Positions 1-15,297 of a stretch of 64,000 nt of DNA are shown piece by piece. The stretch is from a virus: positions 1 through 64,000 of IMG/VR virus record IMGVR_UViG_3300034101_001153; one strand, written 5' to 3'. Under the pieces are notes generated by a model. The model was not told the origin of the DNA. It saw nothing but the letters and a program-made list of their open reading frames with translations, and made no database searches. The position numbers and the translations under genes were made by a program. Positions within the stretch are counted from its first letter, which is position 1. The number at the start of each line of letters is the position of its first letter.

Positions 1-203
1 CTTGGTCTGGCGATCTTGGCTGGGGTGTTACTGTGAACTACCTTGCAGACAACGAGCATAAGGTTCCTGTGTATGACTTTGCACTCCGCGAGGTAACTCT
101 CTATGACTATGATTGGAAGTCGGGAGTGCTGACTGATATGATTGTCACGTTCTCGCTGAACGAGTTCATCCGTAAGTACGCTAAGACCTTGGTGGAGGTG
201 TGA
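1..203 (+). CDS. 3' end of a hypothetical protein (truncated by window edge)
   Basis: An open frame runs from the left edge to a TGA at 201-203, giving 66 residues without a start. The visible part is acidic with several aromatic residues and ends KTLVEV. I do not recognise it. The stop sits just before the SD and ATG of the next gene, so the two are probably co-transcribed. Confidence 0.6.
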   Translation, partial: WSGDLGWGVTVNYLADNEHKVPVYDFALREVTLYDYDWKSGVLTDMIVTFSLNEFIRKYAKTLVEV

Positions 204-205
204 CA

Positions 206-649
206 ATGATTGACCCTAGCATGACTGACATTCATCCTTACCCGCCAACTATGCAGGAGTTGGAGCAGAGGGTGGGTCAATCGTATACAGAGATTAAACG
301 TCTGACTTCAGAGTTGGAGACTATCACTACCGACCGTGATTTCTGGCAGGCCAAGGCTCATGAGCGGCAGTTGATGATTGACAACCTTGAGGAATACGTC
401 AAGGATCAGTATGACTACATTGATGAGAATATCTCTCAGAGTCTTGTCGATATCTTTGGTTTCAATATCACCAAGGACTACGATGTGACAATTACCGTAA
501 CGTTCTCTGGTGTTGTTACTGCACCGCTTAATTTCGATATGGATGATCTTGAGAACCATCTGAATGCCAGCCTTGACGCATCCTACTACGGAGATGTAGA
601 GGCAGACTTCTCAGAGGATCGCATGGAGATTGACTGGTCTGAGAGTTAG
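206..649 (+). CDS. Hypothetical protein with N-terminal coiled coil
   Basis: About 147 residues. I place the start at ATG 206 because GGAGG at 194-198 sits seven bases upstream; an in-frame GTG at 200 is too close. Residues 15-60 have regular Leu/Glu/Arg spacing typical of a coiled coil. The C-terminal half is acidic and beta-like, with Asp/Glu-rich runs. No family was recognised. A tRNA-Glu gene follows eight bases after the stop. Confidence 0.7.
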   Translation: MIDPSMTDIHPYPPTMQELEQRVGQSYTEIKRLTSELETITTDRDFWQAKAHERQLMIDNLEEYVKDQYDYIDENISQSLVDIFGFNITKDYDVTITVTFSGVVTAPLNFDMDDLENHLNASLDASYYGDVEADFSEDRMEIDWSES

Positions 650-656
650 TAAGGCC

Positions 657-729
657 GCTCCCATCGTCTAGAGGCCAAGGACGCCGCCCTTTCAAGGCGG
701 TAGCACGGGTTCGAATCCCGTTGGGAGTA
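657..729 (+). tRNA. tRNA-Glu (anticodon TTC)
   Basis: Full cloverleaf: seven-base acceptor stem GCTCCCA/TGGGAGT (one G-T pair), anticodon stem CCGCC/GGCGG with loop CTTTCAA, and T arm CGGG-TTCGAAT-CCCG. Discriminator is A. The 3' CCA is not encoded. Confidence 0.95.
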
Positions 730-818
730 CTGGGAGGGATGACTGAGACTGGACTCCAGTTGTCCCTCTCTTTATTTATTTAGACACGCCCGGCCCGCAA
801 GACTTAGTTTTGTCAAGT

Positions 819-850
819 GTTTACGACGATCATTTTAAAATCACGGAAAT
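819..850 (+). repeat. Two-part repeat, copy 1 (diverged)
   Basis: TTTACGA at the left and TCACGGAAAT at the right, at the spacing seen in the other copies (start to start 22 bases). It lies about 40 bases upstream of the promoter of the DUF932 gene. Consensus of the five copies: CATTACGA-N14-TCACTGAAAT. Confidence 0.55.
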
Positions 851-889
851 GTTTATCGAAAATTGATATAAATAATCTGCTAGATATTC

Positions 890-918
890 TTGAGACTGTC
901 AGACCTAGGGTGTATAGT
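890..918 (+). promoter_or_regulatory. Sigma70-type promoter for the DUF932 gene
   Basis: TTGAGA at 890-895 and TATAGT at 913-918 are separated by exactly 17 bases. Transcription would start near 925, followed by a short leader with the SD AAGGAGAA at 941-948 before ATG 953. Confidence 0.7.
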
Positions 919-952
919 TCTTCTATAAGTTCAATCAACTAAGGAGAATCAC

Positions 953-1948
953 ATGGCACACGCAGTAGAGGTTGGCGCAAACGGCGAGCAGGCTTTCGCT
1001 TCCTTCCGCGAACCAGCATGGCACGGTCTTGGCACCGTATTCTTTGAGGAGAAGTCCACCCAGGAGATGCTGGATGCGGCTTACCTGTCCAACTGGAACG
1101 TTCGCCTGGAGGCCGTTCCTTACCCTTCCACCTACAATGTCATCACACCTTCCTACATGGTCCTTCGTGACAATCCCTTCGACCAGGGTACTGATGTTCT
1201 CGCCACCGTTGGTGAGCGTTACCACGTTCTTCAGAACGAGGATCTTTTCGACTTTGGCGATGCGCTGCTTGACGGTGGTCGCTGGGAGACTGCTGGCTCT
1301 ATTCGTCAGGGTCGCGTTGTGTTCGGTTCGCTTGCGCTTGAGCGTGAGACTGTCCTTGATCCCAACGGCGTTTCGGATGTTGTGAAGTCTTACCTTCTCG
1401 TCCACACCTCGCATGACGGTTCTACCGCTGTGCAGGCTTCCATCACTCCCGTCCGCGTTGTGTGCCAGAACACTCTGAACATGGCTCTTCAGGGTGTGAA
1501 GCAGTCCTTCAAGATTCGTCACACGCAGACTGTGGGCGGTAAAGTTCTGGCTGCACGCGAGGCTCTTGCTCTCGCAAACACCTACCTGGACGAGTTCGAC
1601 AAGGAGGCTCAGGCTCTCATCACCAAGGAGATCACCAAGGCTAAGTTCGATGCCATTCTTGAGGCTGTCTACCCGCGTCCCGACAAGGATGCCAAGGGTG
1701 CCGTCAAGAAGTGGGAGACTAAGGTCGATCTGCTGGAGGAGATTTACTCTTCCGATACCACCAACATGATCGCAGGCACCGCGTGGGGTGCGTTCAATGC
1801 TCTCACGGAGCGTCTGGACTGGTTCCGCAAGGGTCGCGGCGAGCGTGGTGCTGAGAATGTTGCAGCAGCCGCTAGTGGTTTCGATCCTGTCACCAATGCG
1901 GAGAAGGGTCGTATCCTGAGGGCGGTCAAGGAGATCGCTTTCGCGTAA
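953..1948 (+). CDS. DUF932-family phage/plasmid-like protein
   Basis: 331 residues, near the usual size of the DUF932/TIGR03299 family, whose molecular role is not firmly known. The family opening (AxxREPAWHGLGT at about residues 16-28) and the central segment around VRVVCQNTLNMAL match by eye. It has its own promoter (890-918) and a strong SD, and its codon use is visibly richer in G and C than that of the small genes around it, with many GGC, CGC, CTC and ACC codons. This suggests high expression or separate acquisition. A tRNA pair follows directly. Family assignment is from remembered motifs. Confidence 0.85.
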   Translation: MAHAVEVGANGEQAFASFREPAWHGLGTVFFEEKSTQEMLDAAYLSNWNVRLEAVPYPSTYNVITPSYMVLRDNPFDQGTDVLATVGERYHVLQNEDLFDFGDALLDGGRWETAGSIRQGRVVFGSLALERETVLDPNGVSDVVKSYLLVHTSHDGSTAVQASITPVRVVCQNTLNMALQGVKQSFKIRHTQTVGGKVLAAREALALANTYLDEFDKEAQALITKEITKAKFDAILEAVYPRPDKDAKGAVKKWETKVDLLEEIYSSDTTNMIAGTAWGAFNALTERLDWFRKGRGERGAENVAAAASGFDPVTNAEKGRILRAVKEIAFA

Positions 1949-1984
1949 TCAAACATCCTGGGTATGATGTAAAACTGCCTGCAC

Positions 1985-2052
1985 GCCACCCGCGCTGGGC
2001 GCAGACGAGATTCCAACCCTTGTCGTGCAGAGTTCGATTCTTTGGGGTGGTG
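1985..2052 (+). tRNA. Probable tRNA-Trp (anticodon CCA) with minimal D arm
   Basis: Acceptor stem GCCACCC/GGGTGGT and T arm CAGAG-TTCGATT-CTTTG are clear. The anticodon loop TTCCAAC gives CCA on a stem CGAGA/CCTTG with one A-C mismatch at the loop end. Discriminator G fits bacterial tRNA-Trp. The D arm is very short (about 13 bases between acceptor and anticodon stems). Only four bases separate it from tRNA-Asp. Confidence 0.55.
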
Positions 2053-2056
2053 CTTG

Positions 2057-2129
2057 GCACTTGTAGAGTAGCGGTTATCTCGCCACCCTGTCACGGTGGA
2101 GATCGTGGGTTCGAATCCCATCAGGTGCG
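2057..2129 (+). tRNA. tRNA-Asp (anticodon GTC)
   Basis: Acceptor GCACTTG/CAGGTGC, anticodon stem CCACC/GGTGG with loop CTGTCAC, and T arm GTGGG-TTCGAAT-CCCAT (one G-T pair at its base). Discriminator G. No encoded CCA. Confidence 0.95.
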
Positions 2130-2192
2130 CTTGACAAATCCAATAAAATCGGGCCGGGCCGCAATTATTTATTCTATTACTCATTTACGATG

Positions 2193-2224
2193 CATTACGA
2201 CGATTCACTGAAATTCACTGAAAT
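2193..2224 (+). repeat. Two-part repeat, copy 2
   Basis: CATTACGA at 2193-2200 and TCACTGAAAT starting at 2215, with an extra TCACTGAAAT half-unit starting at 2205. The left unit is preceded by a near copy (CATTTACGA at 2183-2190). It lies directly upstream of a promoter-like sequence for the small-gene operon. Confidence 0.65.
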
Positions 2225-2233
2225 TCCTTGTCA

Positions 2234-2261
2234 TTGTCATACCCCTATGGTAGCGTAGTAA
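2234..2261 (+). promoter_or_regulatory. Possible promoter of the small-gene operon
   Basis: TTGTCA occurs twice in tandem (2228-2233 and 2234-2239). Sixteen bases after the second is TAGTAA; 17 bases after the first is TAGCGT. Either pair could drive the genes beginning at 2280. The -10 match is imperfect. Confidence 0.4.
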
Positions 2262-2279
2262 TACACAGAGAGGATGGAT

Positions 2280-2453
2280 ATGCCATATACACAGACTATT
2301 ATTCTACATATTACGCTTCCTGACGACCAGCCGAATCCTAAGTCGTGGGAGTGGGATGCTGAGTTGGACTTGCATCTTGTAGATGCCATTAGTGATAATG
2401 AGTTTGTCCTAGAGGATTGGCTTCTTGTCGATCAGAATGAGAGTGATGAATGA
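2280..2453 (+). CDS. Small acidic protein, first of the small-gene run
   Basis: 57 residues from ATG 2280, with an AGAGAGG SD about eight bases upstream. The opening MPYTQTIILHITLP looks like a beta strand; the rest is acidic with three Trp. Function unknown. Its TGA overlaps the start of the next gene. Confidence 0.65.
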   Translation: MPYTQTIILHITLPDDQPNPKSWEWDAELDLHLVDAISDNEFVLEDWLLVDQNESDE

Positions 2454-2623
2454 TGGACCCTAATATTGTTCTCAACCGCCTCCGCGATATCTTGACCCAA
2501 TGGGAGGAGTGGGGTACGCTAGAGGTAGATGCAGAATCTGCTATGTATGAGATTGTTGATCTCTTTCATGACCTTGACGACTGGCTATCTCAGGGTGGCT
2601 TCCGACCCAACGATTGGAGTTAG
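2450..2623 (+). CDS. Small acidic helical protein
   Basis: 57 residues, starting at ATG 2450 (or the adjacent in-frame ATG 2453), overlapping the upstream stop by four bases. The sequence has heptad-like Leu/Ile spacing and many Asp/Glu. No family recognised. Its end carries the SD (TTGGAG, 2614-2619) of the next gene. Confidence 0.65.
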   Translation: MMDPNIVLNRLRDILTQWEEWGTLEVDAESAMYEIVDLFHDLDDWLSQGGFRPNDWS

Positions 2624-2625
2624 TA

Positions 2626-2853
2626 ATGGCAACCATCACATTCTCAGTAGAACTTATCTACGAGGGAACTGGTCACTTTATGGATTTTGAGTATGACTAT
2701 GAGACTTGGGATGATATGACCCAAGAGGAGTTGGAAGCATTGGCTGACGATCTTGCTACTGGTCGTGATCCTGAGTTGTATAACGAGATCATGAATAACA
2801 TTTCTATTGTCCCCCGCCTTATTAGCATTGAGGATACTGATGAATCTGAGTAA
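2626..2853 (+). CDS. Small, very acidic protein
   Basis: 75 residues from ATG 2626, chosen over upstream TTG because TTGGAG lies seven bases before it. Roughly a quarter of the residues are Asp or Glu, with very few basic residues. A beta-strand-like opening is followed by a helical DDMTQEELEALADDL segment. This charge profile is compatible with a DNA-mimic or inhibitor protein, but nothing identifies a target. Confidence 0.65.
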   Translation: MATITFSVELIYEGTGHFMDFEYDYETWDDMTQEELEALADDLATGRDPELYNEIMNNISIVPRLISIEDTDESE

Positions 2854-3142
2854 TGCTGAGCCTGGATGCTACATTGACGGCTCCCACCGCTCCAACTTTG
2901 ATTTCATGTGCATGGTCATCGAAATGGCAGAGTCATATGGGTTTGAGATGGACTTTGATCAGTTTGTCAGGGATGTGGAGGGTATTCGTAATGATTTCTT
3001 CACAGATGATGATATCTATGACATTATGGATTCTATTGACTGGACCTATGATGATGCGCTAGACTATCTCAATACCAATACCCGCGACGGGTTTTACTGG
3101 GAAGTTATAGATCAGAGTCTATATCTTGTGGAGGAAGAGTGA
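2840..3142 (+). CDS. Small acidic hypothetical protein
   Basis: 100 residues from ATG 2840, which overlaps the end of the upstream gene by 14 bases. Rich in Asp, Phe, Tyr and Met. Its 3' end GAGGAAGAG would serve as SD for the next gene, which overlaps its stop as GTGA. No family recognised. Confidence 0.65.
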   Translation: MNLSNAEPGCYIDGSHRSNFDFMCMVIEMAESYGFEMDFDQFVRDVEGIRNDFFTDDDIYDIMDSIDWTYDDALDYLNTNTRDGFYWEVIDQSLYLVEEE

Positions 3143-3285
3143 AGCACACATTCATTGTCACAGTAGAATGCGAGAAATATACTGATTCGCATATTGTAAT
3201 GGCGAACCGTTTGGACTATGATGAGGACTACGGTTTCCCATATACCGTCGAATGGCGAGACACGCCCCTTAGGTTGGAGGACTAA
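3139..3285 (+). CDS. Small hypothetical protein (GTG start)
   Basis: 48 residues, VKHTFIVTVE... to RLED, starting at GTG 3139 that overlaps the previous TGA. Its stop TAA shares one base with the ATG of the next gene. Translational coupling with both neighbours supports it being real. Function unknown. Confidence 0.6.
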   Translation: MKHTFIVTVECEKYTDSHIVMANRLDYDEDYGFPYTVEWRDTPLRLED

Positions 3286-3536
3286 TGCAGTTTCACTATG
3301 TTGTATTCTATGACACAGATACTCAGAAGTGGGGGGTAGAGTTTGATACCGCCGCCTACTTTGCAGATGGTAATATCTATGATGATGATTCTGCTACGCA
3401 GACTGGCTATGGCTGGTTTGCTGCTGGTGATGATACGCCTTTGGAGGCGGCACTTGATGAGTCTCTAGTTAGACTTCTTGGATACATTGTAGATACTTGG
3501 CCTGCTCCTGGGGAGGTGCAAGGTGCCAATGCCTGA
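3285..3536 (+). CDS. Small acidic hypothetical protein
   Basis: 83 residues from ATG 3285 (TAATG overlap with the previous gene; TTGGAGG SD). Strongly acidic and aromatic. The opening MQFHYVVFYDTDTQKWGVEF resembles a beta hairpin. No family recognised. Confidence 0.65.
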   Translation: MQFHYVVFYDTDTQKWGVEFDTAAYFADGNIYDDDSATQTGYGWFAAGDDTPLEAALDESLVRLLGYIVDTWPAPGEVQGANA

Positions 3537-3720
3537 GCGTATCAACGCTATCAAGACTGTTACTTATGATGTTCCCGCCATTGTTGAGAGCCTAGAGCAG
3601 ATGGGCATGGAGGATATTGACTTTGACGTTGTGATGGAGTATATTCAGGAGTGGGTCTTTGAGGACTTTGGCGGGGACTCTGGAATTATCTTTCAGGATG
3701 AGAATGGGGAGGAACTATAA
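3523..3720 (+). CDS. Small acidic hypothetical protein
   Basis: 65 residues from GTG 3523, preferred over ATG 3529 because GGAGG at 3512-3516 is six bases upstream. Mostly helical prediction by eye, ending in DENGEEL. Overlaps both neighbours. Function unknown. Confidence 0.6.
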   Translation: MPMPERINAIKTVTYDVPAIVESLEQMGMEDIDFDVVMEYIQEWVFEDFGGDSGIIFQDENGEEL

Positions 3721-3899
3721 TGCCTAAGTATAGAATTAGTTTTACTACTGAGGATTTGTGGAGGCTGGACGTAGAGGCTAATACCATTGACGAGGCTATG
3801 GAAAACTTCTATAATGGTGACTACACGCACGATATGGCGGTACTTACTGAGGGTGGCTATCTTCAGGAGTCCGTTAGTATCGAACCTATGGAGGGCTAA
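3720..3899 (+). CDS. Small protein, paralogue A of a tandem pair
   Basis: 59 residues from ATG 3720, overlapping the previous TAA by one base. It opens MPKYRIS and closes GGYLQESVSIEPMEG; the protein encoded at 4038-4217 has the same length and matches over its whole length. The fold looks like beta strands around a helix (TIDEAMENFYNGDY). Function unknown. Confidence 0.7.
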   Translation: MPKYRISFTTEDLWRLDVEANTIDEAMENFYNGDYTHDMAVLTEGGYLQESVSIEPMEG

Positions 3900-4045
3900 T
3901 GAAGTACGCAGTAGCATTTGGTAATGCTTTCGATGGTCATAATTTTTATGGCCCGTTCGATTCTAGTGATGAAGCCATTGACTATGGATCTAATCGTGAA
4001 GACGGCGACTGGTTTGTTATTCCATTGGAGGTTCCTCATGCCTAA
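3899..4045 (+). CDS. Small hypothetical protein between the paralogues
   Basis: 48 residues from ATG 3899 (TAATG overlap), MKYAVAFGNAF... to LEVPHA. Rich in Asp and aromatic residues. It separates the two tandem paralogues and overlaps the second by eight bases. Function unknown. Confidence 0.6.
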   Translation: MKYAVAFGNAFDGHNFYGPFDSSDEAIDYGSNREDGDWFVIPLEVPHA

Positions 4046-4217
4046 GTATAGAATTAGTTATCAGACCGAGGACTGGTGGGACTTGTTCGTAGAGGCATAC
4101 TCTATGGATGAGGTCCTTACCAAGTTTCACAATGGGGAATATGACCACAACAGGGCCACTCTAATAGAGGGCGGCTATCTGCAAGGTTCCGTTAGTGTCG
4201 ATCCTGTGGAGGACTAA
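4038..4217 (+). CDS. Small protein, paralogue B of a tandem pair
   Basis: 59 residues from ATG 4038, with TTGGAGG upstream. It matches paralogue A at 3720-3899: shared MPKYRIS, EDxW, VEA, DE, FxNGxY and EGGYLQxSVSxxPxE. The start must be 4038, because upstream in-frame codons would extend into the neighbouring gene and lose the alignment. Confidence 0.7.
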   Translation: MPKYRISYQTEDWWDLFVEAYSMDEVLTKFHNGEYDHNRATLIEGGYLQGSVSVDPVED

Positions 4218-4570
4218 TGACTAGCATCACCATGCACCTTACTGCTAACTTCTACCCGCCGATCCCTGCTGACATTCAGATGCGCGTGCAGGAGATTTTC
4301 GATGAGTTGGAGCGTGACTCAGGCCCATATATCATAGGCTTTGCAGACGTTCCAGAGAATTGGGACTACATGTATGATGATGAGTCTGTATTTGATCGAA
4401 CATATGAGTTGCCCAATGGTGCGGTGGTGACAGGTCGCTCTCTGTGTGATGATCTGCGTCTTTGGGATGCGCTATTCTGGGACTGCTCAGAGCCAGATGA
4501 GTTGTGGGCAGACTACGAGCGGGAGCAGAAAGAATATGCAGGCCAACTATCATTCTGGACGGCGGAGTAA
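4217..4570 (+). CDS. Acidic hypothetical protein
   Basis: 117 residues from ATG 4217 (TAATG overlap). Rich in Asp, Glu, Trp and Tyr, with a helical C-terminal tail ending in SFWTAE. No family recognised. Among the larger members of this small-gene run. Confidence 0.65.
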   Translation: MTSITMHLTANFYPPIPADIQMRVQEIFDELERDSGPYIIGFADVPENWDYMYDDESVFDRTYELPNGAVVTGRSLCDDLRLWDALFWDCSEPDELWADYEREQKEYAGQLSFWTAE

Positions 4571-4668
4571 TGGACAACTGTGATCGTTGCTATTCCTATG
4601 AGGAAGATGATATCCTTGCCATGAACAAAGGTATCTGCGAGTCGTGTAGAGTGGAGGAGATTGTCTAA
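4570..4668 (+). CDS. Mini zinc-ribbon protein
   Basis: 32 residues from ATG 4570 (overlaps the previous TAA). Two CxxC knuckles, CDRC near residue 4 and CESC near residue 24, are enough to bind one zinc ion. Its GGAGGAG end provides the SD for the next gene. Function unknown. Confidence 0.6.
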   Translation: MDNCDRCYSYEEDDILAMNKGICESCRVEEIV

Positions 4669-4889
4669 TGTCTAATACAATCCATTTCTATGAGATTGAC
4701 GGTGGCCCATCAGGTATCTGGTGGGAGGGTAGGGTAGATGATGATGGTCCCTACATTGGTATGTTCGATAATCAGGTGGACCTAATGCGTATTGCTAGTA
4801 TTCTCAGTCTTGCTAATCATCCTATCCGCTTTCACACACAGGCTGAGTATGAGTTGGATTCTATGCTAGAGGAGATTCTAGGAGGATGA
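4668..4889 (+). CDS. Small hypothetical protein
   Basis: 73 residues from ATG 4668 (TAATG overlap, GGAGGAG SD). The opening MSNTIHFYEIDGG looks beta-rich and the C-terminal half helical. Its terminal codons carry the SD for the membrane protein that follows. Function unknown. Confidence 0.65.
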   Translation: MSNTIHFYEIDGGPSGIWWEGRVDDDGPYIGMFDNQVDLMRIASILSLANHPIRFHTQAEYELDSMLEEILGG

Positions 4890-5050
4890 TAGGTAGATCA
4901 TATAGTATCGGAAGGCGTGTAGAACGTCATACTGGTGGCGGTGGTCGTATGAAACCAACCAACTTCTCTGAAACAGTATTTGGTATCTTTATGCTACTTG
5001 CTATCCTATTTATTCTTGGTTCATGCATTGCTCCGTTTGTAGGTGATTAG
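4886..5050 (+). CDS. Small single-pass membrane protein
   Basis: 54 residues from ATG 4886, with GGAGG just upstream and an ATGA overlap with the previous gene. A basic N-terminus is followed by one strongly hydrophobic segment at about residues 32-50 (FGIFMLLAILFILG). It could act at the host membrane, but nothing more specific is visible. Confidence 0.6.
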   Translation: MIGRSYSIGRRVERHTGGGGRMKPTNFSETVFGIFMLLAILFILGSCIAPFVGD

Positions 5051-5398
5051 ATGAATAAAAGAGATTATCTTAGAAGTCTTGGTTTTGAGGTCGGTGAGCG
5101 AGGCAGGCTATCTGCTGAGATGCTAGAGGCTCTTAAAGACTTTTATGAAGATGCTACACAAAATAATAAACCACAGAGGAAGATTCTTCCTGCATCTGTC
5201 AAGATGCGAGATGATAGAACCTACATGGTGGAGTTGCAAGATGGTGGCAGAGTAGAAATGGGATTCTGTTCATCTTGTAAAGAATCTATGCTCTACTGTC
5301 ATTGCGACGGTGGCCCAAAACCACCCTCGTACCTTGACTCTCCCATAATAAACTGGTATCCTGTAACTTCCCATAAGGAGGAACATGCTAGAGGATAA
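5051..5398 (+). CDS. Protein with Lsr2-like DNA-binding motif and a zinc knuckle
   Basis: 115 residues. Residues 8-27 (LGFEVGERGRLSAEMLEALK) resemble the C-terminal domain of actinobacterial Lsr2, in which an RGR loop inserts into the AT-rich minor groove and is followed by a helix starting with [IV]PAxxxxA. Further on is CSSC with a CHC about nine residues later, a possible zinc site. Phage Lsr2-type proteins can interfere with host xenogeneic silencing. That role is inference here, and the match is from memory. Confidence 0.6.
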   Translation: MNKRDYLRSLGFEVGERGRLSAEMLEALKDFYEDATQNNKPQRKILPASVKMRDDRTYMVELQDGGRVEMGFCSSCKESMLYCHCDGGPKPPSYLDSPIINWYPVTSHKEEHARG

Positions 5399-5603
5399 GA
5401 TAGCACGCAAAATGGCAGACATGTTCTCAGATAGTAGAATCAACGTCTACGTCTTAGCGGCTATGACACGTAGGTATCTATCTCCACATATGAATAGAGT
5501 TCTACAAGAATGGTGGGACTTGCATACAGCAGATGCCAGCACGTATGTCGATAGTGGACAGAGGCAACTGTTTGATGTTGGAGCGTATGACGTTCATCCA
5601 TAG
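5385..5603 (+). CDS. Small hypothetical protein, last of the rightward operon
   Basis: 72 residues from ATG 5385, with AAGGAGG upstream and 14 bases of overlap with the Lsr2-like gene. Helical, with a basic first half. A strong GC-rich hairpin follows four bases after the stop and probably ends the operon. Function unknown. Confidence 0.65.
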   Translation: MLEDKIARKMADMFSDSRINVYVLAAMTRRYLSPHMNRVLQEWWDLHTADASTYVDSGQRQLFDVGAYDVHP

Positions 5604-5607
5604 TTGA

Positions 5608-5635
5608 TGTGGGGGCGGTGAAAATCGCCCCCACA
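5608..5635 (+). terminator. GC-rich hairpin after the rightward operon
   Basis: Perfect 10-bp stem TGTGGGGGCG/CGCCCCCACA with an eight-base loop, directly after the last + strand gene. There is no T-run, which fits the U-poor terminators common in actinobacteria. It could work from either side. Confidence 0.6.
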
Positions 5636-5759
5636 AATACTTGACATGGGCACGTTTGGCGTGCCGGGTTTTCCACAAGTTATCCACAGGTGGGTATTAA
5701 GAACCAAATAAAAAATCTCACTGAAATTCCGGGACAACTTAAAAATATAATTTAATAGA

Positions 5760-5791
5760 CATTACGAACGTGTGAAAAAAATCACTGGAAA
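5760..5791 (+). repeat. Two-part repeat, copy 3
   Basis: CATTACGA at 5760-5767 and TCACTGGAAA from 5782, start-to-start 22 bases. An isolated right half TCACTGAAATTCC is at 5718-5730, identical to the right end of copy 2. Confidence 0.65.
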
Positions 5792-5808
5792 AGAAAGGCT
5801 TCAAGGAA

Positions 5809-5886
5809 ATGATTGAGTTCCTCTTAGTGTTTATAGGTATAGCGCTATTGTTGTCAATGATGCAACCACCACCGCCCCGCAAATAG
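5809..5886 (+). CDS. Possible 25-residue membrane peptide
   Basis: ATG 5809 opens a 25-codon frame, MIEFLLVFIGIALLLSM followed by QPPPPRK, with an AGAAAGG about ten bases upstream. One hydrophobic segment would span a membrane; the end is Pro-rich and basic. It is the only plausible gene in the origin-like region. The short length makes it uncertain. Confidence 0.35.
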   Translation: MIEFLLVFIGIALLLSMMQPPPPRK

Positions 5887-6006
5887 CGGCGGCGGTAGGG
5901 AAAACTCCTATCAATATATCCCCCTATAATATATATACAAATATCCCTAGATTGTCAGAACTTTTCTGACTTTTTCCGGGATATTTTGTTATTTTTCTAG
6001 AAAAAA

Positions 6007-6040
6007 CATTACGAACCCAACAAAAAAAATCACTGAAATT
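6007..6040 (+). repeat. Two-part repeat, copy 4
   Basis: CATTACGA at 6007-6014 and TCACTGAAATT from 6030. Here the spacing is 23 bases, with an A-run between the halves. Confidence 0.65.
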
Positions 6041-6124
6041 TGGGGGGAATTTCCCTATGTGTGGATATCCTGTGGATATCTCTGGCATATGTTATAAAAA
6101 TGTTATAGAAAATACTTGAAAAAG

Positions 6125-6156
6125 TATTACGAAGGGGTGTGATATATCACTCCATA
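6125..6156 (+). repeat. Two-part repeat, copy 5 (diverged right half)
   Basis: TATTACGA at 6125-6132 and TCACTCCATA from 6147, start-to-start 22 bases. The left half is well kept, the right half only partly. Confidence 0.5.
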
Positions 6157-6320
6157 TCTCAATATAATAACATTTTAATCTCAATATGTATCTATATTTA
6201 TAGACATATGTGTCTATTGACTCATATTGTGGACAACCTGTGGATAACTTTGATACCCTTGTGGATAACCTGTCATCCTATTACGTGCAAATGATAGTGT
6301 TCATTGTGTGATCTTTAAGA

Positions 6321-6470
6321 CTACTCTGTGTCAGAGAAATACTCTTCATACTCACACACCATACACTTTCTTCCTATCTCTTCTATTATTCCTTTATAGA
6401 GTATTTCTTCTATAGGGAGAAGGATATGTTCTCCTGTACCACCGCCCGAACAGGGACTGTCGCTTATCAT
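6321..6470 (-). CDS. Small hypothetical protein
   Basis: 49 residues from ATG at 6468-6470. A GGAGG six bases upstream decides this start; a longer upstream frame would run through a hairpin and the previous gene. Contains a CMVC motif near the acidic C-terminus. Last gene of the leftward block before the origin-like region. Function unknown. Confidence 0.6.
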   Translation of the reverse strand: MISDSPCSGGGTGEHILLPIEEILYKGIIEEIGRKCMVCEYEEYFSDTE

Positions 6471-6493
6471 AAATCCTCCTAGGTAAATAGAAA

Positions 6494-6511
6494 CGGCTGC
6501 CGTAGCAGCCG
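6494..6511 (-). terminator. Intrinsic terminator of the leftward operon
   Basis: Perfect seven-base stem CGGCTGC/GCAGCCG with a four-base loop. On the - strand it is followed by TTTCTATTT. It lies just downstream of the gene ending at 6536. Confidence 0.55.
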
Positions 6512-6535
6512 CTCTATATGGTAAAAATTTGTTGC

Positions 6536-6811
6536 TTATCGCTTGGGGAAAAATACTCCAGCCCATACTGCTTTCTTTACTTCTGGATTCTTCCATTCTT
6601 CTGGGATCATGCTCTCAGCGTTTAATGCTCTTGCTCTACGCATAATGTGTTCTTTAACGTCCTGTCTAGCACCACCGCGCCCCCATGATCTAATGGCATT
6701 CATTAAGTCTTCTCTGTTTGCAATTGGATAAGATCCATCTGGCATAGCAGTTCCAGAAGAAGCCATTCTTCTACGTTGCTCTTGGGAAAACTCTCTCTTC
6801 ATCATATCCAT
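6536..6811 (-). CDS. Small protein of a widespread phage/actinobacterial type (DUF6582-like)
   Basis: 91 residues from ATG 6811; GAGGAGG lies eight bases upstream, so an earlier GTG at 6820 is less likely. The pattern RRRMASSGTAMPDGSYPIAN, then AIRSWGR and HIMRRARAL, is one I associate with small proteins found in many phages and sometimes fused to head proteases. The biochemical role is not known to me. Helical and basic. Confidence 0.65.
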   Translation of the reverse strand: MDMMKREFSQEQRRRMASSGTAMPDGSYPIANREDLMNAIRSWGRGGARQDVKEHIMRRARALNAESMIPEEWKNPEVKKAVWAGVFFPKR

Positions 6812-6866
6812 TATGTACACCTCCTCATACGTTTAATTCGTATACTTTCTAATAATTATTATACTC

Positions 6867-7055
6867 TTAAACGCCCCTGCGATACTTCCTACGAATCTGA
6901 GGCTTGACTCCAGCCTTAACGCATTGTTGGTAGGCTACTCCGTACTTCTTTTCATTGCTCTCTCCAGCCTTGCCACCGACCGCCTTACGAACTTCACCAA
7001 TGGTTCTGTTTAATTCGCGGATTAGGGCTTCAGCCTCTTCATTGGGTACTGACAT
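6867..7055 (-). CDS. Small basic hypothetical protein
   Basis: 62 residues, ATG 7055 overlapping the previous TAA by one base, with AAGGAAGG upstream. Lys/Arg-rich, ending KPQIRRKYRRGV; a helical first half has regular Leu/Ile spacing. Could bind nucleic acid. No family recognised. Confidence 0.6.
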   Translation of the reverse strand: MSVPNEEAEALIRELNRTIGEVRKAVGGKAGESNEKKYGVAYQQCVKAGVKPQIRRKYRRGV

Positions 7056-7207
7056 TATTCAAACCTTCCTTCATCGATATATTTCTTATGCTTTTCTTTA
7101 CATGGTTCGCACCATTGCTTTGGTAGGTACTTCCTTTTTGATACTGACCATTTAATTAAACAATCATACTCACTATGCTTTTTTGCTACGCATGTACTCT
7201 TTGCCAT
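7055..7207 (-). CDS. Small basic protein with CxxC
   Basis: 50 residues, MAKSTCVAKKHS to EGRFE. Four Cys (including CEPC) and two His in a Lys-rich sequence suggest a zinc-binding nucleic-acid protein. It lies nine bases after the GMP reductase-like gene and is coupled to the next gene by TAATG. Function unknown. Confidence 0.6.
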   Translation of the reverse strand: MAKSTCVAKKHSEYDCLIKWSVSKRKYLPKQWCEPCKEKHKKYIDEGRFE

Positions 7208-7215
7208 AATAAATC

Positions 7216-8253
7216 TCAATTTCTTTTAGAATGTGGTTTGTTCTCAGCAAGTGCGCTATGAGATATTGTAATATACTGTGCCTCTTTATACAAGGAATAA
7301 AGGTTATCAACACCTGAGTAGGATAGACCGCTTCCAATGCCGCCAGCCCATTGTTTGAGTACGGAGGACACTGGTCCATTGTATGGGACCATAGTACTCA
7401 CACCTTCAATAACGGATACTGAGCCTCTACCCTCTTTCTGAGCGGCTTCTGAGGCCATACCACGGAGTTTTTTAAATCTCTCCCCATCGATATTAATAAT
7501 AGATCCTGGCGTTTCTTCTGTGCCAGCCAATGCAGATCCAAGCATGACTACATCTGCTCCTGCGGCAAAAGCCTTTACAGCATCACCAGAAGTTTTAATT
7601 CCACCATCAGCAATAATGGATGGACCGTATCCTCTTTCCACTCTTTCACGAATATCCATAATCGATGCAAGAGTGGGCATACCATGACCACTAACAAGTC
7701 TGGTAGTGCAAAGACCGCCACCACCAATACCAACACGAACAGAGTCTACGCCAGCATCTGCAAGCGACATGTATCCATGATATGTAGATATGTTTCCAGC
7801 CATGATATGAACATCTGGGAAGTGATCCTTTAGTTGCCTGACTGCGTTAATCGCATACTGACCGTGACCATTTGCAGTATCCACTAGGAGTATCCGAACG
7901 CCAGCATCAACTAGTTTCTGAGCATGATCCATAAAACCATTATTAGATGCAATAGCAACGCCAAAAACAATATTGTTTTCTACAAGAGTTTTTGCTTGCC
8001 AAAGTTGCTTATCATATGACATATACCTATGAAGAATTCCTAGGCCACCAGCAGCAGCCATAGACATACACATATCTCTTCCACAGATAGTATCCATGGG
8101 AGCAGCAATAATAGGAAGTGACAGTGGAATTAATACAGAGTCACAGCCGATGGTAGCGGACATATCTACCGCGCTTCTTGACATGATATCTGAGTCTTGT
8201 GGAACCAATAATATATCATCGAAACACAAGATGTTTCTTTTATACTCTTTCAA
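7216..8253 (-). CDS. IMP dehydrogenase / GMP reductase family enzyme
   Basis: 345 residues, the length of GMP reductase (GuaC) and of IMP dehydrogenases lacking CBS domains. It acts on purine nucleotides in the cytoplasm, either IMP to XMP or GMP to IMP. Visible: N-terminal FDDILLVP, the PMDT segment, the phosphate/catalytic loop GIGGGGLCTTR with catalytic Cys182, ADGGIK near 216-220, and MLGSALAGTEETPG near 237-250. The C-terminal VPYNG..GGIGSGLSYSG resembles both subfamilies. The ordinary GPGS of the loop is GGGG here. Reaction direction cannot be settled by eye. Own promoter upstream. Confidence 0.85.
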   Translation of the reverse strand: MKEYKRNILCFDDILLVPQDSDIMSRSAVDMSATIGCDSVLIPLSLPIIAAPMDTICGRDMCMSMAAAGGLGILHRYMSYDKQLWQAKTLVENNIVFGVAIASNNGFMDHAQKLVDAGVRILLVDTANGHGQYAINAVRQLKDHFPDVHIMAGNISTYHGYMSLADAGVDSVRVGIGGGGLCTTRLVSGHGMPTLASIMDIRERVERGYGPSIIADGGIKTSGDAVKAFAAGADVVMLGSALAGTEETPGSIINIDGERFKKLRGMASEAAQKEGRGSVSVIEGVSTMVPYNGPVSSVLKQWAGGIGSGLSYSGVDNLYSLYKEAQYITISHSALAENKPHSKRN

Positions 8254-8326
8254 AGACTAGCCTTTCTGTTTACTATAAATGCAATCTTCTAGGCGGTAGA
8301 TAAAATGGATAGCCTAGTTTTTTATT

Positions 8327-8356
8327 ATTATGCCTCATGACAAGCGTAGTTGTCAA
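8327..8356 (-). promoter_or_regulatory. Promoter of the guaB/guaC-like operon
   Basis: On the - strand TTGACA (8356-8351) and CATAAT (8332-8327) are 18 bases apart. The leader up to ATG 8253 contains a CTAGGC/GCCTAG hairpin. Confidence 0.65.
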
Positions 8357-8405
8357 GTATGTTATTGGGAAAGGAACAATCACCAAAGAGAGGTATAAAA
8401 GAAAC

Positions 8406-8516
8406 CTATATCTCGTCTTCATCAAATTCCAGAGCCAGATCTACTAGTGAGTTACCTATGTAATCAATTAGTTTCTCTACCTGAAAAATTATGTAATCTA
8501 TCATAGAGACAATCAT
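8406..8516 (-). CDS. Possible small acidic protein (nested overlap)
   Basis: 36 residues from ATG 8516 to TAG 8406, hydrophobic first half and acidic tail (LEFDEDEI). It overlaps the 3' half of the gene at 8464-8598 in another frame. Last frame of this small operon. Uncertain because of its size. Confidence 0.35.
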   Translation of the reverse strand: MIVSMIDYIIFQVEKLIDYIGNSLVDLALEFDEDEI

Positions 8517-8598
8517 AACATAGTTCACCATCCCATGGTGGACCATCTGAAAAGCATGAGCACTTTTTATTATTATCTTCTACAGTATCAATATTCAT
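8464..8598 (-). CDS. Small zinc-knuckle protein
   Basis: 44 residues from ATG 8598, three bases after the previous stop. CSC near residue 13 and CYDC near residue 27 form a likely four-Cys zinc site. Function unknown. Confidence 0.55.
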   Translation of the reverse strand: MNIDTVEDNNKKCSCFSDGPPWDGELCYDCLYDRLHNFSGRETN

Positions 8599-8600
8599 AA

Positions 8601-8774
8601 CTAATTTGTTTTTCGTGAAAGGTGATCGTACTTTTCTACCGCCGCGATAGCAGCCTTAGCAAGATCGTACCAAGTTCTTGCCTCTTTCTTGTAATTATTC
8701 ATCAAGACATTGGCAACATACTCTACCTTATCGACAGGATCTTGTAGATAAATCTTAGCCTCTTCGTGAATCAT
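8601..8774 (-). CDS. Small helical protein
   Basis: 57 residues, MIHEEAKIYLQDP to LSRKTN. ATG 8774 overlaps the previous TGA (ATGA). Almost fully helical by composition. No family recognised. Confidence 0.6.
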   Translation of the reverse strand: MIHEEAKIYLQDPVDKVEYVANVLMNNYKKEARTWYDLAKAAIAAVEKYDHLSRKTN

Positions 8775-8965
8775 AGTTTCCCCTTAAGTTCTTGAATTAG
8801 ACCTGAAATAACAAAGCAGTCCTCATGTCTAAATGAGTTACAGTCATCATTAATAGATCCTTCACATAGTCTACCACGGAGATTTTGAATCAGAGACTGA
8901 TAGACCTGTCTTTCTATGGACGATGCATCTAGTTGCTCACTACATTGCCAGCATTTAATATTCAT
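8771..8965 (-). CDS. Small Cys-rich protein
   Basis: 64 residues with CWQC near residue 5 and further Cys at about 34, 42 and 50, plus one His. A metal site is likely. Overlaps both neighbours by a few bases. Function unknown. Confidence 0.6.
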   Translation of the reverse strand: MNIKCWQCSEQLDASSIERQVYQSLIQNLRGRLCEGSINDDCNSFRHEDCFVISGLIQELKGKL

Positions 8966-9146
8966 ATTTCTTATCCAGGTATTCTTTATAAGAATTGATG
9001 GCTACTTCTGCGTCCATAAGAGCAATCTCTGTCCAGTTCCTTCCGTCCTCTGAGTCTAACCATTCCTGATTGACATGATTCTTAGGAAACCAAGCCTTCA
9101 TTAAGGAACCAGCAACATAATTCACAATACTTTCTGGAATAGCCAT
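8955..9146 (-). CDS. Small hypothetical protein
   Basis: 63 residues, MAIPESIVNYVAG to KKYEY, starting at ATG 9146 in a TAATG overlap. Helical, with three Trp. No family recognised. Confidence 0.6.
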   Translation of the reverse strand: MAIPESIVNYVAGSLMKAWFPKNHVNQEWLDSEDGRNWTEIALMDAEVAINSYKEYLDKKYEY

Positions 9147-9655
9147 TAAATTTCCTTAACCCCACGTAGTTCTTTATTAGACTTCAGGAGAGCAGAGTTA
9201 GCAAGAGTATTAGAGACAATCTCAAGGACACAGGATACATTAATATAAAGATCTTCTGGGTGCCATTTATGATTATTCTTATCTCCATAGGTATCGTTAA
9301 ATGCTACCCGCAAAATATCAAAGAAGTCGTCTGCTGTCATATAATATGCCAGCCAGGGCTGGCTATCAGTTTGCGCTGTCACTTTAATATTATCCTTTTC
9401 ACTAGATGTTTGATTATTTATCTTGAGTGATGGAGTCTTTGTAGATCTAACTAGTGTCAGTTCATTTACAGCAATCCATCCAGAATTATATCCAAGCCAG
9501 AGATTGTCAAACTTGACAAGATATTCTCTTGGAAATCTCTTAAATTCTTTTGCATGAACATCTCTTCCAGGGGCATGATCGACTACCATGCCACGATGAG
9601 TAGTCTTTCTAACAGTATCATAAAAATCTACAATATCGCCAACAACAAATTTCAT
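9146..9655 (-). CDS. Hypothetical protein with SH3-like N-terminus
   Basis: 169 residues. The first 65 (FVVGDIVDFYDTVRKTTHRG...YLVKFDN...WIAVNELTLV) look like a small beta barrel of the kind used to bind peptides or nucleic acid. A Ser/Thr/Asn-rich linker leads to a helical C-terminal domain. The exact role is unknown. Overlaps the next upstream gene by four bases. Confidence 0.6.
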   Translation of the reverse strand: MKFVVGDIVDFYDTVRKTTHRGMVVDHAPGRDVHAKEFKRFPREYLVKFDNLWLGYNSGWIAVNELTLVRSTKTPSLKINNQTSSEKDNIKVTAQTDSQPWLAYYMTADDFFDILRVAFNDTYGDKNNHKWHPEDLYINVSCVLEIVSNTLANSALLKSNKELRGVKEI

Positions 9656-10140
9656 AGTTCCTCATTCCACATAAGTTTATGCGTAGGCCAATGATAGGTA
9701 CATTTATCACAGCATACATAATCTTTATAAACTTCATATTCAAGCCTGTATTGTGGATACAACTCTGGGGCTTTTTCATACAGCCGACCGCGATGAGTAG
9801 TAACCACGCTATTAACAGTATACTCGTCATGCATCCATTTTGGAAGAGAATATGGCTGCATGTTTTGCTTCATCATACGATCAATCTCTGCCCAATTCTT
9901 CTGCCAACTGTAGCCACGACTATGCATTTCGTATCGAATAGCAGCAAGATAAATATATAGTGCCGCATGGTGGCCTCTAAACATACGAACGGCAGGGTGG
10001 TTGGTCCACGCCTTAGACTTATTTTCACCAACGAGAATAGTCATAATCTGCCGACCCTCTAACAGTTGTTTGACTAGACGCTTTTGGTCTAGACTGGCGG
10101 CAGAGTCCCAGAAACTACGCTCTGGAAGAAATACCTGCAT
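9652..10140 (-). CDS. Pyrimidine-dimer DNA glycosylase-like protein
   Basis: 162 residues. The N-terminal pattern MQVFLP, LDQKRLVKQLLEGRQI, then WTNHPAVRMFRGHHAAL and a later RGY matches the actinobacterial and phage family related to T4 endonuclease V (DenV, Pyr_excise). T4 DenV cuts at cyclobutane pyrimidine dimers, using its N-terminal amine for lyase chemistry. The C-terminal CCDKC...H could bind zinc and is an extra. Role as UV repair is inference from the family. Confidence 0.7.
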   Translation of the reverse strand: MQVFLPERSFWDSAASLDQKRLVKQLLEGRQIMTILVGENKSKAWTNHPAVRMFRGHHAALYIYLAAIRYEMHSRGYSWQKNWAEIDRMMKQNMQPYSLPKWMHDEYTVNSVVTTHRGRLYEKAPELYPQYRLEYEVYKDYVCCDKCTYHWPTHKLMWNEEL

Positions 10141-10352
10141 TACAGATCCTTAAACTTTTGCTCAAAGTAGTCGTCAATTGCGTCCATGTCATCCTCCAAT
10201 ACGGTTACGTCCATGTTATCTAGTGTATAGAACCAGACGGCGGTGTTCAAGTATTCTTTGCGAACTTTTCCTAGGCATTTCTTATTCCCCACCTCGTCTG
10301 AGTAATTAATATAATAATTATCATTGTAGGGAATTAAAGTAATTAAACTCAT
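10140..10352 (-). CDS. Small acidic hypothetical protein
   Basis: 70 residues, beta-like opening MSLITLIPYNDNYYINY and acidic helical tail DAIDDYFEQKFKDL. Coupled to the next gene by TAATG. Function unknown. Confidence 0.6.
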   Translation of the reverse strand: MSLITLIPYNDNYYINYSDEVGNKKCLGKVRKEYLNTAVWFYTLDNMDVTVLEDDMDAIDDYFEQKFKDL

Positions 10353-10489
10353 GACTTATCTAATATAGTTTCTCTTAATACTTTTATCTCTTCAATTAGT
10401 GTCATGGTTGCGTAGAAGCCTGCGTAATCCATCATTCCAATAGACGCAAAATGCAGGGCCTTCTCCTCGTTTGTCTGATTAATAATCAT
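10349..10489 (-). CDS. Small helical protein
   Basis: 46 residues, MIINQTNEEKALHFAS to ETILDKS, overlapping neighbours on both sides by four bases. Entirely helical by composition. No family recognised. Confidence 0.6.
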   Translation of the reverse strand: MIINQTNEEKALHFASIGMMDYAGFYATMTLIEEIKVLRETILDKS

Positions 10490-10947
10490 TTATCTTCCCA
10501 TCCAGGAACTACGGTAGTAGGGATACCTTCTTCCATCCAAAGTTTAATAATACTAGGATTGTCATCCCATGCATGAATAATATTGTAAGCCTTACGAATG
10601 GTGTAAAGCATGTCCTTCTTGACTTCGTAATCTTTCCTATTGTCATCATTCCCACGCATCATTAGCATGTCACTAGGAACATTATTCATAGCCAGCCACC
10701 AGGCTGTATGATGCCTCCACATATGCTTACGAGCAGTAACAACTAGCACATCATGCCCCATGACCTTAGCCACCTGAGCGGCATTAACTACATGTTTATG
10801 GGGTGGTACGCTAACAGATGCAGCATGAAATCTATGAAAGTGCTTTACAACTGTACGTTTAGTTTCATCAAACTTGGTAAGATGGTGCCTGATGGACGAC
10901 ACATCTGCAAGCGTGCCGTCCATATCAAATATGACTGCTGTCTTCAC
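10486..10947 (-). CDS. HAD-superfamily phosphatase (polynucleotide 3'-phosphatase type)
   Basis: 153 residues. Motif I DMDGTLAD (nucleophile Asp8, second Asp10), motif II VVTAR near residue 70 and motif IV WDDNP near 127 mark the HAD phosphatase fold. The arrangement resembles the stand-alone 3'-phosphatase domain of T4 Pnkp found in many actinophages, which clears 3' phosphates from damaged nucleic acid. No kinase domain is present. The substrate is inferred from similar phage proteins. Confidence 0.75.
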   Translation of the reverse strand: MKTAVIFDMDGTLADVSSIRHHLTKFDETKRTVVKHFHRFHAASVSVPPHKHVVNAAQVAKVMGHDVLVVTARKHMWRHHTAWWLAMNNVPSDMLMMRGNDDNRKDYEVKKDMLYTIRKAYNIIHAWDDNPSIIKLWMEEGIPTTVVPGWEDK

Positions 10948-11135
10948 AGCATCTCCTCATAGTCTGGATGGTCAATTGGTGTTGGAACGGTAATAAGTGT
11001 ACCGCACATAGCACACTCCCCGTCAAGCAAATACTGGCTAATGTTATATTCTTCATCGAACGTGACGCATATCTTTAAAAGCCAACTACCACACGATGGG
11101 CATTCTGGCGTAGGCAAGCCTCGCACATCCAGCAT
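10944..11135 (-). CDS. Zinc-ribbon protein
   Basis: 63 residues with CPSC at about 12-15 and CAMC at about 41-44, a classic four-Cys zinc ribbon. ATGA-type overlap with the HAD gene. Function unknown; such ribbons usually bind nucleic acid or partner proteins. Confidence 0.65.
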   Translation of the reverse strand: MLDVRGLPTPECPSCGSWLLKICVTFDEEYNISQYLLDGECAMCGTLITVPTPIDHPDYEEML

Positions 11136-11138
11136 TCG

Positions 11139-11273
11139 TCACTTCTTTCTAATAGAAATTGTACGTCCCTTGGTATTGCTAGGAGTGCTTTCTTCATCAT
11201 CCCATAGCCATTCCCAAGGATTGATTTCATTTCCATTGGCCCAATCAAACATAGGAATCCAGGCTTTCATCAT
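11139..11273 (-). CDS. Small Trp-rich protein
   Basis: 44 residues from ATG 11273, or 43 from the adjacent ATG 11270; GGAGGT is so close that 11270 is the better start. Four Trp in the first 30 residues, then an acidic patch and a basic tail (TISIRKK). Function unknown. Confidence 0.55.
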   Translation of the reverse strand: MMKAWIPMFDWANGNEINPWEWLWDDEESTPSNTKGRTISIRKK

Positions 11274-11282
11274 ACCTCCAGA

Positions 11283-11384
11283 TTAACGTGATCTTTTGTT
11301 CTGGACTTGTCTTTTTTGCTTCATTAGACGCTCAACTTCATCGTCTAACTCTTCTTCTTCATCATAATCGTAGTTATAGTTCAT
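11283..11384 (-). CDS. Small charged protein
   Basis: 33 residues: Tyr/Asp/Glu-rich first half (YDEEEELDDEVE) and a Lys/Arg/Gln-rich second half. Starts within the stop of the dehydratase gene (ATGA). Function unknown. Confidence 0.5.
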   Translation of the reverse strand: MNYNYDYDEEEELDDEVERLMKQKRQVQNKRSR

Positions 11385-12391
11385 ATCTTTAGCCACTCTG
11401 GATGATCCAGAGTCCATTGTACCGTTCTTTCTAGTGATTGTTCAAGGGAAAGCGGTGCCTTCCATCCTGTATTAGCAATTTTACCACCGTCCAGGGCGTA
11501 ACGCAAGTCATGTCCTGGCCTAGATGAGTGAAAATCTATAAGTTCATAGTTAAGAGTCTTCCCCGCATAAGAGGCTACCATCTGAGCCATCTCTAAATTA
11601 TCCACCTCTCGCTCGCCCACTACGTGTAATTTCTGAGGGGCCATAGACTCGCCATAGGCTGGTGTAGGCTGGTTCAGGGCATGGAGCAGGGCATCTGCCT
11701 GGTTCCTGGCATGTAGGTAGAATCTGCTACCAATCTCTCCTGTTGGAGCAGCATGAATAGTTACAGTTTCTCCAGAAATAACCTTTTTCATAACCATCGG
11801 AATGAACTTTTCAGGGTCCTGCATCTCACCAATGATGTTCATGGTGTTGGTGATAATTAGTGGGACGCCATATGTCCTCCAGTATGAATAAGCAATTGAC
11901 TCTTGAGCCGCCTTTGATGCTGAATAAGGATTGCTTGGGAAATATTGATCCATCCATTCACGATGGGCATGACCAACAGGGGCGGGGCCATAGACTTCAT
12001 CTGTAGATACATGAAGAAACTTCTCAATATCTGAAAAACGTGCCCACTCTAGCATGTTGCAAACCAATGATACATTATTCTCAATAAATGGAACAGGCTC
12101 ATCAATAGAACGATCAACGTGCGATTCACTAGCAACGTTGAGAACATAATCAATCTTACCAATCTCATGTGAGAGGACTGGTGATATTGGAGCGGTGAGG
12201 TCATGCTTAATTATCTTGGTTCTCTTAAAGTCATCGTCATATCCTGATACTGCAATTCGGATACGATCTGTAATACCACGGTGTCTAAAAGATACCAAGC
12301 ACACAACATTCCAGTCGGTATTAGCAAGAATGTGACGCAATACATGGCTGCCAACAAATCCACTGGCTCCTGTTAATAATACGGTCTTCAT
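11381..12391 (-). CDS. dTDP-glucose 4,6-dehydratase-like SDR enzyme
   Basis: 336 residues of the extended SDR family. NAD-binding GASGFVGSH at residues 8-16, an STDEVYG active-site segment with the Asp-Glu pair of RfbB-type dehydratases, and YSASK with catalytic Tyr and Lys. It would convert an NDP-sugar to its 4-keto-6-deoxy form in the cytoplasm. The nucleotide cannot be read by eye. Final gene of the glycan island, overlapping the methyltransferase stop by one base. Confidence 0.75.
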   Translation of the reverse strand: MKTVLLTGASGFVGSHVLRHILANTDWNVVCLVSFRHRGITDRIRIAVSGYDDDFKRTKIIKHDLTAPISPVLSHEIGKIDYVLNVASESHVDRSIDEPVPFIENNVSLVCNMLEWARFSDIEKFLHVSTDEVYGPAPVGHAHREWMDQYFPSNPYSASKAAQESIAYSYWRTYGVPLIITNTMNIIGEMQDPEKFIPMVMKKVISGETVTIHAAPTGEIGSRFYLHARNQADALLHALNQPTPAYGESMAPQKLHVVGEREVDNLEMAQMVASYAGKTLNYELIDFHSSRPGHDLRYALDGGKIANTGWKAPLSLEQSLERTVQWTLDHPEWLKI

Positions 12392-13011
12392 TATAGTTTG
12401 TGTACTCCAATAACTATGCTGTCGTCGGTGACTCCAGGCTTTGTATCTATTATCTCAAACTCTACATCGTTATTCAAGGATAAATAAATTTCCCATTCTT
12501 CAACAGTCTGCTCCCATGAAGGAGAACGTTTTGATACATCCTCAATCATATATAGACCACCGCTCTTCAAGGATTTCAATAAATATTCAAATGAGAAGGC
12601 GGCGTCTGAAAAGACATGTGATCCATCATCTAGAATAACGTCAAACTTTACATACTCGCTGTCCTGGCGGAAGCGAGATAGATCTATAATTGATGATTGA
12701 TTTGCAACATATGTAGAAATTCTTGGGTTGTCATTAATCATCTTGCCTGCATCAATGTCTAGTCCATAGATTTTTGCATTGCTAAATATATCTGCCCAGG
12801 CATGAAGAGAACTAAATTCTGGTGTCCTGTTTGCAATTCCTATTTCTAAAAAGTTTATGTCGCTGTCGATACTAATATTATATTTGTTAAATAAATAGAT
12901 ATAGGCATTAACGTAAGAGTGGTCTGACTCTTTATCGGAGCCAGCCTGATTAAAACTATTTGCCATTCTTTCATATAAACTATTGTCTAGTATTGAATCT
13001 AGAGTTTTCAT
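12391..13011 (-). CDS. SAM-dependent methyltransferase (sugar or glycan type)
   Basis: 206 residues of the class I Rossmann methyltransferase fold: FLEIGIANR (motif I), YGLDID (acidic end of strand 2), VILDDGSH (motif IV region) and GLYMIEDV. The DDGSH pattern is common in the macrocin/mycinamicin O-methyltransferase group. Its place among glycosyltransferases suggests it methylates a sugar or glycan. Substrate unknown. Four-base overlap with the next upstream gene. Confidence 0.65.
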   Translation of the reverse strand: MKTLDSILDNSLYERMANSFNQAGSDKESDHSYVNAYIYLFNKYNISIDSDINFLEIGIANRTPEFSSLHAWADIFSNAKIYGLDIDAGKMINDNPRISTYVANQSSIIDLSRFRQDSEYVKFDVILDDGSHVFSDAAFSFEYLLKSLKSGGLYMIEDVSKRSPSWEQTVEEWEIYLSLNNDVEFEIIDTKPGVTDDSIVIGVHKL

Positions 13012-15284: not shown

Positions 15285-15297
15285 CTTATCTCACAAT

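Follow-up and report, generated by a model that had tools for sequence, protein, structure and literature searches.

A phased DnaA-box cluster at a putative terminal-repeat border in a phage related to the Streptomyces Stanwilliamsviridae

The 64,000-nucleotide stretch of DNA analyzed here (the window, positions 1–64000 of a 96,176-bp virus record) carries a cluster of DnaA boxes at 5669–6268 that is real, goes beyond chance, and is regularly phased at about one helical turn. We tentatively interpret this cluster as a binding site for host DnaA at the border of a terminal repeat, most likely serving the initiation of replication, and an origin function of the stretch is plausible. What appears to be new is that virulent phages encoding a replisome of their own conserve such a cassette at a constant distance from a genome end that has been mapped.

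The phage is lytic, related to the Streptomyces phages of the Stanwilliamsviridae, and equipped with its own DNA-copying enzymes. The assembly was taken as closed because the two ends of the record have 69 bp in common. The polymerase III alpha subunit (DnaE-like, 44012–47281) is ∼56% identical to those of Stanwilliamsviridae Streptomyces phages and is encoded on the minus strand, as are a DnaG-like primase (48048–49001) and a DnaB-like helicase (49267–50487); a UvsX/RecA-like protein is also encoded by the genome. A search for DnaA domain IV gave no match in 11 genomes (the phage and ten relatives), while 10 control genomes matched, and a phage-encoded DnaA was therefore rejected. Among the scanned ORFs, a subset of all ORFs, neither a helicase loader nor a Rep protein could be recognized. 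The known RNA families found in 1–12000 were tRNAs only. An unusually large sugar-synthesis set, comprising four nucleotide-sugar epimerases, aminotransferases, an acetyltransferase, and a glycosyltransferase, occupies 11381–24397.

DnaA boxes between convergent gene blocks

Seven sites with at most one mismatch from TTATCCACA start at 5669 and 5680 (perfect) on the plus strand and at 6060, 6071, 6228, 6239 (perfect), and 6260 (perfect) on the minus strand. They form a left pair, TTTTCCACA/TTATCCACA (5669–5688), a middle box-like pair, ATATCCACA/ATATCCACA (6060–6079), and a right group of three boxes, TTGTCCACA, TTATCCACA, and TTATCCACA, spaced by 11 and 21 bp (6228–6268). A weak box-like site, TTTTTCACA, at 5771–5779 on the minus strand is additional to the seven. 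The sequence-only reading had listed six sites, three of them perfect; the recount gives the same number of perfect sites but one site more in total. An 11-bp spacing on the same strand occurs three times (5669/5680, 6060/6071, and 6228/6239), but not once across 300 Markov simulations in which local composition was kept and the genome was scored by its richest 700-bp segment. The same simulations reached a maximum of five sites and two perfect sites per 700 bp, compared to the seven and three observed.

The stretch had also been described as AT-rich and located between convergent operons, and both statements hold. Its GC content is 0.354 compared to 0.389 for the genome, and it lies between a plus-strand block ending at 5603, closed by a terminator-like hairpin (5608–5635, plus strand; –24.5 kcal/mol including flanks), and a minus-strand block that starts at 6321. 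The 147 bp between the middle and right boxes (6080–6226) have a GC content of 0.259 and constitute a candidate unwinding region, although less stable DNA exists elsewhere in the genome. The small-gene block ends with a plus-strand gene for an Lsr2-like DNA-bridging protein (5051–5398; a weak match); a search for relatives carrying such a gene found none.

The tandem 22-mer TTTTCCACAAGTTATCCACAGG is found in 36 bacterial contigs, and in several of them the DnaA C-terminal signature and as many as 15 boxes lie close to it; the Nocardiopsis locus (L445) has both the signature and 15 boxes. The 22-mer also lies within an array of 11-bp-spaced boxes on the Pantoea plasmid pSOE2 (L423). From these DnaA-signature loci and the plasmid array, the phage sites can soundly be read as DnaA boxes, and we infer that DnaA binds them. 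In a Micrococcales contig the 22-mer precedes dnaB, the exact phage box pair being located between rplI and dnaB (L420:1710–1731), and in another actinobacterium it lies beside parA-parB genes. The majority of the bacterial matches represent one conserved four-box array of Levilactobacillus species without a DnaA signature nearby, and on pSOE2, from a Pantoea endosymbiont, 20 DnaA-box sites lie close to the match, many of them at 11-bp spacing (L423:3164–3555 and beyond). The earlier assertion that phages with their own helicase and primase seldom show host DnaA boxes at such density is not supported, as a single 20-base tandem box pattern matched at least 120 viral contigs. DnaA boxes in phages are already known, and they are common in viral contigs.

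The stretch further contains a two-part repeat with the consensus ATTACGAAC-N11-ATCACTGGAAATT. Three clear plus-strand copies, at 5761, 6009, and 6127 (0.02 expected by chance), confirm the number given in the sequence-only reading: ATTACGAAC-N11-ATCACTGGAAAAG at 5761–5793, ATTACGAAC-N12-ATCACTGAAATTT at 6008–6041, and an element with a palindromic second half (GTGATATATCAC) at 6126–6158. A degenerate copy starts at 5696 (5696–5729, plus strand). The proposal that these repeats form part of an origin did not stand, since they are dispersed across the small-gene block, with a plus-strand copy at 820–848, overlapping plus-strand copies followed by a promoter-like TTGTCA site at 2184–2222, and another copy at 95114. 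In the relatives G024, G040, G019, and G044, the repeat likewise recurs through the equivalent block, mostly on the coding strand, and copies often lie directly 5′ of a sigma70-like promoter (TTGTCA/TTGACA … TATAAT-like) or a start codon. Because of this block-wide recurrence near promoter-like sites, and given the irregular spacing within the stretch (65, 247, and 118 bp), an origin iteron was rejected; the sequence pattern is that of a block-wide regulatory-type element.

A promoter for a phage RNA polymerase was considered as well. No T7-type RNA polymerase was matched, but the control genomes matched none either, so its absence is not established. Searches for sigma region 4 gave sub-threshold matches only, in relatives, and none in the present phage, while a wide-gap search with the repeat pattern returned matches at chance level by rough expectation. 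Immediately 3′ of the copy at 5761–5793 lies a micro-ORF for a 25-aa membrane peptide, MIEFLLVFIGIALLLSMMQPPPPRK (5809–5886, plus strand), with a GC-rich hairpin at its 3′ side (5869–5899, plus strand). The micro-ORF is nearly identical in the close relative G002 (MEFFLIIICILLILGMMQPPPPRK), the MMQPPPPRK tail being common to both, and short peptides resembling it occur in G018 and G024.

Clusters in relatives and the terminal-repeat border

Similar clusters were found in the syntenic G018, in the circular G040 (nine boxes), and in G024, G044, G041, and G032, where 110 bp contain ten boxes. In a 131-kb metagenomic relative (L221:4621–4729), ten DnaA boxes of both orientations likewise lie within 110 bp. 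The clusters of relatives lie at the edge of the equivalent gene block, and their position can be described relative to the phrog_1221 gene (953–1948, plus strand, in the present phage). Boxes in a cluster, or in a pair that is tandem or inverted, are located 1.3–5 kb downstream of this gene in the present phage and in G040, G030, G033, G034, G041, G042, and G043, although the largest cluster of G041 is elsewhere. The distance is 12–14 kb in G029, G038, and G032. In G024 and G044, the cluster lies upstream of the phrog_1221 gene, on the opposite, divergent side of the small-gene block.

The cluster is kept in G018, G040, and the cultured Samistivirus phages, in whose alignment the boxes stand out as invariant islands in an otherwise variable intergenic region. 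In the Loccivirinae, a conserved non-coding stretch has invariant boxes, TCCACA/TGTGGATAA, at either end. In contrast, the middle and right boxes are missing from G002, which is 88% identical in the polymerase, and its sequence aligned with the left pair shows no boxes either, although G002 retains the two-part elements and the micro-ORF. G026 and the circular G037 showed no cluster. Absence in some relatives means little, since several of them are fragments.

Exact terminal repeats of 10,714 bp and 11,214 bp were determined in Daubenski and G033, respectively, and in the cultured Samistivirus phages the corresponding block is a direct terminal repeat of ∼11 kb. The computed lengths agree with the published ones for Mildred21 (10,818) and Paradiddles (10,778), and the ends of such phages have been mapped experimentally by read starts (PMC5764925). 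In Daubenski and G033, the repeat contains the phrog_1221 homologue, while the counterpart of the thymidylate synthase gene (90151–90843) is located just beyond its other end. By this arrangement, the rightward block of the present phage, from 90.15 kb via the closure to 5.60 kb, would correspond to the terminal repeat, and by synteny the cluster would mark the border between unique and repeated DNA.

In all seven Samistivirus phages compared, the last box, TTGTGCACAA, is followed by the start of the repeat after exactly 28 bp, although the repeat itself ranges in length between 10.4 and 11.1 kb. In the divergent G033, 60 bp separate the second box from the repeat start, compared to 61–62 bp in the Samistivirus phages measured. 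Applying the 28-bp rule to the present phage, we predict the border within 5640–5668 and a terminal repeat starting near 5640. The fixed distance in the cultured relatives suggests, at the level of sequence, that host DnaA is used at this place.

Possible roles of the cluster

Under the interpretation that we tentatively favor, host DnaA would bind a platform at the border of the single-copy genome and the small-gene block, assemble on the 11-bp-phased boxes, and open the adjoining AT-rich DNA, whereupon the phage DnaB helicase, primase, and polymerase III would begin a round of replication at the cluster. A density of boxes far beyond chance and their one-turn phasing argue for DnaA-driven initiation, and the presence of a helicase, primase, and polymerase without a DnaA match in these phages argues for the use of the host protein. 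The step of unwinding and helicase loading is one that we infer. The earlier proposal of a candidate origin is therefore supported by a non-random cluster that recurs in relatives and by boxes that are invariant in the cultured ones, but it draws no support from skew or from the two-part repeat. Counting against it are the missing boxes in G002 and G037, the fact that the genome is least stable at 90.05 kb and not at the cluster, and the satellites MiniFlayer and MulchRoom, which are without key replication genes, depend on related phages for replication, and showed no DnaA-box cluster.

The cumulative GC skew has its maximum at 5862 and its minimum near 90.7 kb. A skew change, which the sequence-only reading had named as a check, is thus present at the stretch, but a maximum is the sign of a terminus and by itself counts against an origin. 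However, the skew tracks gene orientation, and the clusters lie near the maximum in the present phage, G040, and Daubenski but near the minimum in G024. Skew was accordingly rejected as an origin test, as it neither supports nor refutes an origin here.

It is rather unlikely, in our estimate, that the true origin lies elsewhere, at the divergent junction near 90.05 kb, and that the DnaA boxes have another role or none. The skew minimum and the least stable DNA (90025–90151, beside the thymidylate synthase gene) coincide at this junction, and MulchRoom (L569:9533–9729) and the Samistivirus-like G034 (106996–107190) have in common a 200-nt non-coding element with 72% identity, located near the skew minimum of G034. 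The dependence of skew on gene orientation weakens the first argument, and the element, which matches no Rfam family, is a candidate for either a helper origin or an RNA. A role in DNA entry as in T5, in which the small-gene block would enter first and DnaA bound at the border would pause entry until early proteins are made, seems unlikely. The T5 stop signal does have DnaA-box-like sites at the matching place, at the inner repeat edge and a convergent junction, and the layout of block, border, and convergence is common to the present phage, G018, G040, and the Samistivirus phages; this precedent also means that an origin is not proven by finding DnaA boxes clustered in a phage. However, the clusters of G024 and G044 lie on the divergent side of the block, the boxes of BillNye are 5 kb from its short 2.3-kb repeat, and phased arrays of 8–10 boxes resemble origins. 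To our knowledge, two-step DNA entry has not been described in the Stanwilliamsviridae, which also counts against this role.

The fixed distance from the physical genome end would fit packaging or DNA entry equally well. That the cassette helps to position the terminase cut or to duplicate the long repeat, with or without DnaA, is suggested by the constant 28 bp in the face of varying repeat length, by the 60-bp position of the second box in G033, and by the read-start mapping of such ends (PMC5764925), yet we consider it quite improbable, as the invariant boxes of the Loccivirinae lie far from the recorded repeat ends and the clusters switch block side in other relatives. We give still less credence to a decoy, in which phage copies titrate host DnaA and stop host replication, or to transcription control at the end of the block. 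A variable number of boxes among relatives, down to none in the close relative G002, is what an accessory function would lead one to expect, and the occurrence of the 22-mer near dnaB and parA-parB could point to regulation, but a decoy requires neither one-turn phasing nor a fixed distance from the genome end.

Of initiation by host DnaA and its four alternatives, some could hold at the same time. In a doubtful extension of the favored interpretation, a DnaA complex located 28 bp from the border might link the start of replication in the Stanwilliamsviridae with the terminase cut and with the duplication of the 11-kb repeat; if true, this would account for the copying of a long terminal repeat from concatemers. 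Replication start and repeat duplication are poorly known in long-terminal-repeat phages, and the presence of a conserved DnaA cassette at a mapped end in culturable Streptomyces phages makes these ideas testable. The openly accessible literature found on these phages, including PMC5764925, makes no mention of DnaA.

Comparison with known systems

Iteron origins of the P1 oriR type consist of a Rep protein, iterons, and DnaA boxes. The phage stretch is similar in combining DnaA boxes and short repeats in a single intergenic stretch, but no Rep was recognized and the repeats are irregular and dispersed through the gene block.

The T5 injection stop signal (9140–10149, AY543070) is a repeat-rich non-coding stretch with DnaA-box-like sites at the inner edge of a 10.2-kb terminal repeat, and DnaA boxes are listed among its features (PMC13250531). 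The two systems are alike in the inward-pointing small genes of the terminal repeat and the convergent junction, where T5 has its annotated stop signal. This likeness is one of layout. As differences, the boxes of Samistivirus are present a single time per genome, immediately beyond the repeat, and the arrays of the present phage's relatives are larger and phased. DnaA boxes are also present in a 2.9-kb non-coding convergent junction of the T5-like Proteus phage PM135 (MG030347.1 92449–92783, L538).

For the Pseudomonas phage vB_PseuGesM_254, an origin was predicted by Ori-Finder (PMC11512268). This virulent phage with terminal repeats likewise has DnaA boxes in an AT-rich stretch, although it is unrelated and its origin is a prediction only. 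Compared to bacterial oriC, the stretch belongs to a phage genome, is without adjacent dnaA/dnaN, and has a terminus-type skew, but it has the same 9-bp boxes, tandem 11-bp phasing, and AT-rich neighbor.
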